This document shows, piece after piece, positions 14,040 through 32,140 of a DNA stretch of 64,000 nt. The translations under genes were made by a program, and so were the position numbers. The stretch spans positions 186,001 through 250,000 of the forward strand of contig NZ_CP014854.1 in the NCBI RefSeq assembly GCF_002214365.1, given 5' to 3'. The notes beneath the pieces are model-generated. The model did not search any database. It was given only the letters and a program-made list of their open reading frames with translations, and had not been told where the DNA came from. Origin of the DNA: Thermococcus celer Vu 13 = JCM 8558 (GTDB lineage: Archaea; Methanobacteriota_B; Thermococci; Thermococcales; Thermococcaceae). Every line of letters starts with the position of its first letter. Position 1 is the stretch's first letter.

Positions 14040-14103
14040 CGTTTATCACCGATTTAAAGTGCATCTCAACCTTTATAACCTTTCCCCGGAAGTTATTTCC
14101 GCG

Positions 14104-14643
14104 ATGATGAGTGAATCCAATGCTGACCGGATGATGAACCCCGAACCTGAGCACCGGATTGAAGACGAAGGGCGAACCAAAATGGAGGAGCAACTCAAAG
14201 AAATCTATTCAAGCATTGAGGAGCTGAGAAGGGAGACGGAGGAAAGGAAGACCCCGGACAGGCTCGGATGGGACGATATAGCCCAGGAAGCAATAGGGGC
14301 GGTTACCTTTGCCTTACCCTTCGTGTTTACGTCGGAACTATGGGAGATAGCCAAGGACACATCGGTTGAGCGCTCCATCCTCATACTCCTGATGACCCTC
14401 GGTATAGCCTACCTGTTCATCGTCAAATCGAGGATAGGAAACCTGAAGAAAGAGGAATTGTTCCACATCCCTAAGAGGCTCCTTACGGTTATCGTCATAG
14501 CCTACATGATATCGGCGGGGTTGATATACCTGTACGGGATAAACGGACTGGCGGATTTCACGGTGGGTCAGTATTTCAACGCCACCGTACTCATAAGCAC
14601 CTTCGCCGTGATAGGCGCGATAACGGTTGACATGGTGAGGTGA
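14104..14643 (+). CDS. DUF2391 family integral membrane protein
   Basis: A 179-residue protein. The first 60 residues are a charged coiled coil (EEQLKEIYSSIEELRRETEERK), followed by four membrane helices (about 65-170) with ALPFVFTSELWEIA, the family's recognisable motif. The function of the family is unknown. The start is uncertain: ATG at 14104 or 14107 or the later ATG at 14125, none with a strong ribosome site. Its stop codon abuts the ATG of the next gene, so the two are translationally coupled. Confidence 0.7.
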   Translation: MMSESNADRMMNPEPEHRIEDEGRTKMEEQLKEIYSSIEELRRETEERKTPDRLGWDDIAQEAIGAVTFALPFVFTSELWEIAKDTSVERSILILLMTLGIAYLFIVKSRIGNLKKEELFHIPKRLLTVIVIAYMISAGLIYLYGINGLADFTVGQYFNATVLISTFAVIGAITVDMVR

Positions 14644-30711: not shown

Positions 30712-31149
30712 TCACTCAGGTTCTTCTTTCTCGACCAGCTTCTCCTTGAGGAACTGCTTGAGCACGTAGGGGCACTCCTCCTGGATGAACTGCGCGAACT
30801 CCCTTATCCTTTTGACGGTTATCCCGCTGACGTAGTGCTCGAACTGGCAGGCGTCCCTCTCAGCCGTCTCCCGCGGAATACCGAGTATGTCCGTGAAGAA
30901 CTGAGTGAGGAGAAGGTGCTTTGAGTAGGTGTCCTCGGCTATACGCCGGCCCTCGTTCGTGAGAAGGATCCTGTCGTACTTCTCGTACTCGATGAGCCCC
31001 TTCTCGCTGAGCTTTTTCAGTGCGTCCACAACGCTCGGGGGTTTTACCCTCATCATCCTGGCAATGTCCTTAACTCGGATAACCCCCTTGTTCTTGTGGA
31101 GGATGTACATGGCCTCGAGGTACTCCTCTTCCCTCTTGCTTACATTCAA
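30712..31149 (-). CDS. DtxR/MntR-type metal-responsive regulator
   Basis: A 145-residue regulator of the DtxR family. The N-terminal winged helix (MNVSKREEEYLEAMYILHKN, then KDIARMMRVKPPSVVDALKKL) and the metal/dimerisation region with ERDACQFEHYVSG (Cys-x-x-Glu-His) are plain; these residues form the metal site. It lacks an SH3-like domain, so it resembles the short MntR/TK0107-type proteins. The TTG at 31149 has GGTGAG 4 nt upstream. It is divergent from tRNA-Lys. Confidence 0.88.
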   Translation of the reverse strand: MNVSKREEEYLEAMYILHKNKGVIRVKDIARMMRVKPPSVVDALKKLSEKGLIEYEKYDRILLTNEGRRIAEDTYSKHLLLTQFFTDILGIPRETAERDACQFEHYVSGITVKRIREFAQFIQEECPYVLKQFLKEKLVEKEEPE

Positions 31150-31162
31150 CGGTCTCACCTTA

Positions 31163-31257: not shown

Positions 31258-31335
31258 GGGCCGGTAGCTCAGCCTGGTTAGAGCGCGGGGCTTTTAACCC
31301 CGTGGCCGCGGGTTCGAATCCCGTCCGGCCCGCCA
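31258..31335 (+). tRNA. tRNA-Lys (anticodon UUU)
   Basis: A clover leaf folds: acceptor GGGCCGG/CCGGCCC, D stem GCTC/GAGC, anticodon stem CGGGG/CCCCG with loop CTTTTAA (anticodon TTT), T stem GCGGG/CCCGT with loop TTCGAAT, discriminator G and encoded CCA. No intron is seen. It reads AAA/AAG codons. The spacer after it is the hairpin-rich non-coding region. Confidence 0.95.
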
Positions 31336-32140
31336 TAACGAAAGACAAGGGGGCTCCGCCCCCACACCCCCGGAACAGGTTCTTGTTTCGTAAAGCGCCC
31401 TTCTCATCCTTGTTCGAACATCCTTCAGCCCTTTGCTCCGCAAAGCGCTGGCGGAAATAGGCGTGGCTCCTTTTAGGATGGTTGTGATGTGTTTGCATTG
31501 TAAAGAAGTTTTTGAGTTTGGAATTCGCCGTTAACGTGTTACTGGTGGCGGGTTTGCTTTTGGATGGCGCTCCTTCGGAGCGCGGGAGAATCCTAAACCC
31601 CTTGAATTTGCCCTTTTAATCTCGAATTCGGAGTTCAATGGCCGTTTGAGGGTGCAAACACTCACGGGAGGGCAGTTAAAAGGAATCACGATTTTTTTCG
31701 CCAGCCTTCAGCCCTTGCTTCGCAAGCGCTGGCGGAAGTTCAGGTGCTTCTCAGAGACGCCAGCTATCAAGTTGGATTGCTTTTAATCGGCCCGTTTTGT
31801 ATGGTTTCACTCCCACAAGGCGTTCGGAGAACGCCAGAATAAAAAGTGAAACCTGTTCAGGGATTGGTCTTAATGCTAATCCCTCTTTGATTCTCCAACT
31901 TTTAGAGTGCACGCTCTCATCCCAGCCTTTTATGAGAAAGGGCTTTTTTCGCCAGTCTTTTCGTAAAAGGCTGATTACAACCCTTTTGAAAAGCGTTGAC
32001 GGAAAAATTTGCGTGCGGTTTTAAAGTTCGATGTTTTAGCGTGGATCAACGTTTAGTTTGTTATTGCATTTCCCAAAAGCCCCGCGGGGAAAGATTTATA
32101 AATGGCCCGTCCAATGCCCACCAGTGATTAAAAACCACCT
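31336..32140. repeat. non-coding region with a series of hairpin repeats
   Basis: About 800 bp with no convincing gene. Short GC hairpins occur at 31349-31363 (GGGGGC/CGCCCCC), 31431-31445 (CTTTGC/GCAAAG), 31567-31583 (GCGCTCC/GGAGCGC), 31699-31734 (outer CGCCAGC/GCTGGCG, inner CTTGC/GCAAG) and 31803-31853 (outer GGTTTCAC/GTGAAACC, inner GGCGTTC/GAACGCC). The segments at about 31421-31456, 31699-31734 and 31950-32002 share diverged copies of one unit ending in CGCTGGCGGAA or similar. This could be a structured RNA locus, MITE-like elements or decay after tRNA-linked insertion. Confidence 0.5.

Follow-up and report, generated by a model that had tools for sequence, protein, structure and literature searches.

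REP elements end in hairpins that carry a conserved mismatch. The REP palindromes tagged with CGTC include RPE-4 and RPE-6 of Rickettsia and dRS3 of Neisseria, and the passage concerned reports CGTC repeats from five bacterial phyla, none of them archaeal (PMC3733652). For archaeal tRNA introns, transfer and an origin from mobile elements have been proposed in the relevant passages of two papers (PMC3293823, PMC8371274). A passage of the second paper also notes that Thermococcus has few or no transposable elements, although its chromosomes rearrange (PMC8371274). According to a passage of another paper, rearrangement breakpoints of Thermococcales lie within tRNA gene pairs, and a supplementary legend locates the crossover in the 3′ half of the tRNA together with the conserved sequence behind it (PMC5495485).

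The window analyzed here is a stretch of 64,000 nucleotides from Thermococcus celer Vu 13 = JCM 8558. It contains an 805-base spacer between tRNA-Lys(ttt) and the genes for a Zn-ribbon protein and an EF-1beta-like protein. An earlier note on this DNA had described a series of hairpin repeats behind tRNA-Lys. The repeats are real, but rather than a local series they are members of a dispersed family, mostly anchored at tRNAs, which here stand in tandem. Two foldback units (265-282 nt) and a third, partial one make up the array (31336-32061). Its features are as follows.

31258..31335, plus strand: tRNA-Lys(ttt), the anchor gene (ARAGORN, Rfam RF00005)
31336..31390, plus strand: second post-tRNA repeat block, TAACGAAAGACAAGGGGGCTCCGCCCCC.., like a block elsewhere in the same genome (boundaries by eye)
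about 31392-31398, plus strand: AAAGCGC, remnant of a P1 3′ half after the second repeat block
31426..31456, plus strand: P1 hairpin of unit A (P1 model and alignment matches)
31457..31689, plus strand: P2 foldback of unit A (MFE fold, z -3.03; genomic copies)
31567-31583, plus strand: apical stem of the unit A foldback, GCGCTCC ttc GGAGCGC
31690..31708, plus strand: truncated P3 end of unit A, fused to P1 of unit B (sequence; full-P3 alignment and model)
31709..31737, plus strand: P1 hairpin of unit B (P1 model and alignment matches)
31738..31940, plus strand: P2 foldback of unit B, core 31804-31852 (consensus fold, covariation, shuffles)
31941..31973, plus strand: P3 hairpin of unit B, TTTTTTCGCCAGTCTTTTCGTAAAAGGCTG (P3 alignment and model)
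31978..32004, plus strand: P1 hairpin of unit C (P1 model and alignment matches)
32005..32061, plus strand: rest of the 5′ part of unit C (locus L031 matches 31978-32061)

We read these units as a noncoding palindromic element, REP- or MITE-like, which is mobile or spread by recombination and prefers tRNA 3′ ends. We give this reading a probability of about 0.5. A strict site, a fixed orientation, a variable occupancy, hairpin ends and no coding capacity together point to a non-autonomous palindromic element. We are highly confident of the family as such, of its preferred site and of its pairing, and moderately confident that the units are mobile; transposition itself we infer.

The copies share a layout: hairpin P1 opens the unit, P2 follows as a long nested foldback, and hairpin P3 closes it. 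Unit A extends from 31426 to 31707, unit B occupies 31709-31973 and unit C, in which no P3 was seen, runs from 31978 to about 32061. The P1 consensus is CARCCCTTTn..AAAGCGYTGRCGGAAA, with a C.C mismatch inside the stem in 59 of 60 copies (the search pattern favours the mismatch). The nine listed copies of the T. celer genome form 8-10 pairs with one mismatch and have loops of 3-6 nt. P3 reads TTTTCGCCAGCCTTTTCCCAAAAGGCTG in T. celer and TTTTGGTCAAGCTTTTTCCAAAAGCTTG in relatives, where a pattern scan found it at only 28 of 44 P1 loci. Unit A folds nearly from end to end, and 2 of 200 dinucleotide shuffles folded equally well; for unit B (z -4.85) none of 200 did. The core of unit B pairs GTTTCAC (31804-31810) with GTGAAAC (31846-31852), and its apical pairing GGCGTTC/GAACGCC lies within 31819-31835. 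The nested pairings previously pointed out correspond to this anatomy: at 31699-31734 the next unit's P1 is fused to a truncated P3 (TTTTTTCGCCAGCCTT), and 31803-31853 is the core of the unit B foldback. The three unit copies mentioned with them were found as AAGCGCTGGCGGAA at 31443, 31724 and 31991 (identity 100, 100 and 86%).

The ORF list of the spacer contains short frames only. No part of the array scored above the Rfam gathering threshold, which in the window was exceeded only by the tRNA and by the C/D-box sRNA sR46 (14100-14152). Just upstream of tRNA-Lys, a 148-aa minus-strand ORF (window 30712-31158) is of the DtxR-like iron-dependent repressor type (PF01325, PF02742).

The earlier note had suggested a search for other genomic copies, and the T. 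celer genome holds them. The array sequence gave 27 matches there, window included, and the 25 listed (71-100% identity) lie in the window and in 11 other places. Ten of these 11 further whole or partial copies stand behind a tRNA gene, the exception being L025, and at three of the 11 places the pieces come in a different order. In congeners, the same search gave mostly short matches. Among 19 P1 hits of the T. celer genome at E<=1e-5, nine are directly behind a tRNA, seven are in arrays started by a tRNA and three are neither. A hairpin of at least 8 pairs starts within 9 nt of the tRNA 3′ end at 12 of the 46 T. celer tRNAs, compared with 15 of 1088 in the control; nine of the 12 are P1, one is of a second type and two belong to another block. 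The second repeat block of 31336-31390 (TAACGAAAGACAAGGGGGC..) was seen directly behind seven T. celer tRNAs. Outside the window, blocks like it stand behind Ile-gat, Arg-tct, Val-cac, Arg-ccg, Val-tac and Arg-tcg, and at several tRNAs the block seems to take the place of the 5′ arm of P1.

The P1 model (R1) matched 47 of the 48 genomes of the genus, T. celer included, with 2 to 31 copies per genome in these 47, and 15 of 33 other genomes of the family. One genome (G018), with a 99% identical EF-1beta, had zero P1 hits. In seven relatives of our choice, mostly P1-rich, 57 of all 70 P1 hits at E<=1e-5 start 1-6 nt behind a tRNA, and all 57 are on the tRNA strand. The gap is 1 nt in two cases, 2 nt in nine, 3 nt in 45 and 6 nt in one; the usual place of the units is CCA + 3 nt on the tRNA strand. 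By eye, the remaining 13 hits include two behind C/D-box-like sRNAs (L271, L272), one behind a stop codon and several in antisense shortly ahead of a ribosome-binding site. At five loci (L279, L298, L309, L323 and L327), P1 was seen by eye in antisense, directly upstream of RBS-like sequences of protein genes, where it may affect translation.

The exact P1 pattern was also searched over the GTDB r220 contigs. It gave 112 stretches with 116 instances, whereas about 0.03 chance matches were expected by our own arithmetic. Among the matches listed (80 of 112), all 80 are archaeal and spread over many phyla, including Aenigm-, Alti-, Pace-, Woese-, Parv-, Nano- and Bathyarchaeota, Methanophagales and one Thermoplasmata bin; many hits come from metagenome bins. 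Behind a tRNA are 21 of the 116 instances (12 in loci titled Thermococcus or Thermococcaceae, 3 in loci with other titles and 6 in loci with no title listed). Thirteen, outside Thermococcus, are inside a tRNA gene, where deleting P1 and the bases following it lets ARAGORN find a tRNA; none of 190 control anchors gave one. Of 693 variants, only 2 and 7 support the calls at L147 and L174, and the anticodon of L146 is mostly unclear. No tRNA was assigned to the other 82 instances, and at L157, L158 and L200 P1 is 46-69 nt away from a tRNA and antisense to it. L144 is an example of an intron-like tRNA with P1 near the anticodon-loop junction. At L160, L176 and L253 it is inside the archaeal RNase P RNA, near the 5′ end. 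A match to a group II intron was noticed at 51-125 of L160, whose contig carries an RNase P RNA gene. At L155 and L159, P1 is within ORFs matching PaREP1 (PF05942), and the same insert, 33 nt in frame and encoding QPFKKALTE[KN]A, is present in L240. Alignment of L155 with L205, which is without the insert, delimited exactly 11 residues, QPFKKALTEKA.

A literature search by titles and abstract beginnings revealed no paper on the P1 element within the collection and terms searched, and six literal 14-base P1 strings were absent from the same collection. P1 is apparently a widespread and undescribed mobile palindrome of archaea. Its copies inside the tRNA genes of other phyla make it a concrete candidate source of archaeal tRNA introns. 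A wider reading, which we hold tentatively and at somewhat less than even odds, is that P1 is the recognition end of an archaea-wide palindromic mobile DNA. Such DNA would home to tRNA and other structured-RNA genes (at CCA+3, the D, anticodon and T loops and RNase P RNA) via a putative shared enzyme, seeding tRNA introns in some phyla and, in Thermococcus, foldback cassette arrays that are rearrangement points.

The preference for one site might instead reflect a cis-acting element of the tRNA 3′ end, a terminator or a trailer-processing hairpin homogenised among tRNA loci. The fixed 3-nt spacing and the T-runs after P1 in several T. celer copies are consistent with such a function. However, no U-tract follows P1 immediately, most T. 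celer tRNAs are without a hairpin of at least 8 pairs (only the 12 of 46 have one, nine of these being P1), and P1 also occurs inside tRNA genes, RNase P RNA and a PaREP1 ORF and, by eye, in antisense before ribosome-binding sites. We regard a cis-acting element as quite improbable.

At one orthologous site, the number and type of the units vary among relatives. This is the tRNA-Gln(ttg) locus, where tandem units fill 1077 nt in G010, whereas G093 has 320 nt with one unit of a different P1 type (CAAACTT..AAGTTTGATCAAGG), both between matching flanks. Still other units are present in G020 and G022, and in G052 the P1 is limited to CAGCCCTG. At this locus, intact units begin 2-3 nt behind CCA. 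Units led by a hairpin of a second type (CAAACTT..AAGTTTGATCAA or GAAACTTTG..CAAAGTTTCATCAAA) were observed at the same post-CCA place in L117, L120 and L122 and at the tRNA-Gln loci of G093, G020 and G022.

The tRNA itself differs at the EF-1beta/Zn-ribbon locus. In a survey with ARAGORN, in which long-intron calls were ignored, tRNA-Lys(ttt) was upstream in L114 (T. celer), L120 and L130, and tRNAs for Glu and Ile were upstream in L117, L119 and L122; in the other 24 of 30 loci, the upstream stretch (up to 1.5 kb) had no credible tRNA. This variation fits the tRNA breakpoints described in the passage of PMC5495485, at which a tRNA-anchored repeat family would supply shared sequence. It would also suit a passive spread of tRNA flanks by tRNA-to-tRNA recombination, either homologous or by a pTN3-type integrase, with no mobility of the units' own, and the crossover position given in the supplementary legend of that paper agrees with this. 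However, passive spread leaves unexplained the P1 copies after sRNAs and stop codons, those within the tRNAs of other phyla, and the maintained pairing. Of the explanations weighed here, we consider it the least probable.

The pairing was assessed on an alignment (A3) of 27 units, five from T. celer and 22 from relatives. From the 44 P1 loci of relatives, 16 without P3 by pattern and one duplicate were dropped, and L010, L012, L015, L094 and L096 were excluded for odd P3 ends; L008 was kept although it looks aberrant. Among loci L002-L020, no P1 was found by pattern in L004, L005, L009 and L014. P1 is misaligned in A3, and the pairing counts are limited to P3, the apical stem and the core of P2. 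RNAalifold gave 16 pairs, 12 of which have double changes. Pairing holds in 97.2% of the alignment cells; shuffles reach 85.4%, and sliding the alignment leaves at most 50.5%. The covariation score was 0.423 versus 0.204 in shuffles and was reached by none of 500 shuffles; the number of further pair types (21) was no better than in shuffles (20.8). Compensatory changes in the units are strong. The pairing that the earlier note took to be maintained is indeed kept, including across relatives, where it had proposed a covariance analysis. With only short ORFs present, its judgement that the spacer is too structured to be neutral and too irregular for a gene also holds.

Among 60 copies, the variable stem of P1 is CAGC/GCTG 35 times and CAAC/GTTG 20 times, alongside five further forms; in the archaea-wide set the two forms account for 78 and 37 of 115. 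The variable pair is never G-U or A-C among these 115, though the pattern permitted both. The two main types may be two old lineages, and the 115 copies are therefore not 115 events. Over 59 units, the two strands folded with mean z values of -3.08 and -3.11. In 46 of these units the sense strand gives the better fold, but shuffles give the same mean difference, and no excess strand asymmetry was detected (p = 0.64). Equal folding relative to shuffles on both strands speaks for structure kept as DNA rather than specifically for a transcript, and selection at the RNA level gave no signal by this measure.

These results bear on another explanation, in which the units are structured noncoding RNAs co-transcribed with the tRNA, freed by 3′ processing (or by splicing, if P1 is intronic) and acting in trans or as selfish RNA. 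The strong covariation is what such an RNA would show; P1 is on the tRNA strand in 57 of 57 post-tRNA hits and starts at likely processing points, namely after CCA, after the C/D-sRNA-like L271 and L272 and near the anticodon-loop junction (L144). On the other side are the absence of excess stability of the sense strand, the absence of G-U at the variable P1 pair, and the differences in occupancy and type between species. We consider an RNA unlikely, if slightly less so than the other two alternatives.

Under the mobile-element reading, the units would be selfish non-autonomous DNA elements, moved or exchanged as folded or cruciform DNA, with P1 and P3 as the recognised ends and tRNA genes as the preferred target. 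They might be copied by a trans-acting recombinase or transposase, or their spread might be helped by tRNA-to-tRNA recombination. As a by-product, the arrays would place shared sequence at tRNA genes, the reported rearrangement points of Thermococcales.

Candidate movers were searched for. Y1_Tnp (PF01797) is present in 11 of 46 genus genomes and has no match in the T. celer genome, the richest in P1; a Y1 transposase or RAYT of the own genome was thus rejected as the mover. The integron integrase TIGR02249 had no match over the cut-off in seven genomes, which dismissed an integron; each of the seven has one weaker, below-cut-off tyrosine-recombinase match, probably XerA by our naming. Among 64 loci outside Thermococcus, ORF clusters beside P1 recur at 4 loci at most and are, by eye, housekeeping genes and PaREP1; a recurrent partner protein was accordingly discarded. 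Plasmid or phage carriage was likewise not supported, as blastn of plasmid and phage collections was without a match. None of 23 units (one locus counted twice) had a target duplication of 2-9 nt with a right-end jitter of 0-3 nt, and no pair of empty and filled sites was found at base resolution.

Compared with the CGTC REPs in the passage of PMC3733652, P1 is similarly a short, imperfect, dispersed palindrome tagged at one end, which also occurs in ORFs and for which no dedicated transposase was found. The stem has 8-9 bp and the loop 4-5 nt in CGTC REPs, against 8-10 pairs and 3-6 nt in the nine listed T. celer P1 copies. On the reverse strand of A-type P1 (CCGTCAACGC), a CGTC tag precedes a stem starting AA/TT, and 31 of 115 P1 copies read GTTGACGG (reverse strand CCGTCAAC). 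The other 84, reading GCTGGCGG (78) or GTTGGCGG (6), carry CGCC; this G-type P1 departs from the CGTC REPs, and P1 further differs from them in being archaeal, in favouring tRNA genes and in forming an end of a unit of about 270 nt in Thermococcus. With GTAG REP/RAYT and IS200/IS605 ends, the units share hairpin ends with a conserved mismatch and no target duplication, but they are without a GTAG foot, their two ends are inverted, and their own genome is without a Y1 transposase.

Like DDE-type MITEs, the units are noncoding, about 270 nt long and present in many copies, with inverted ends and an internal foldback; unlike them, they have no target duplication, a strict tRNA site and terminal hairpins. 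Their tandem arrays resemble integron attC arrays, as cassettes of variable number and order bounded by imperfect palindromes, although the units are noncoding and the seven genomes each have only the weaker XerA-like match. P1 shares insertion at several tRNA gene positions with archaeal tRNA introns, as described in the passages of PMC3293823 and PMC8371274, and differs in being one conserved hairpin across phyla and, in Thermococcus, in standing behind the tRNA rather than inside it. In how it probably works, the element resembles REP, RPE and MITE, although it departs wholly or partly from what defines each of these three.
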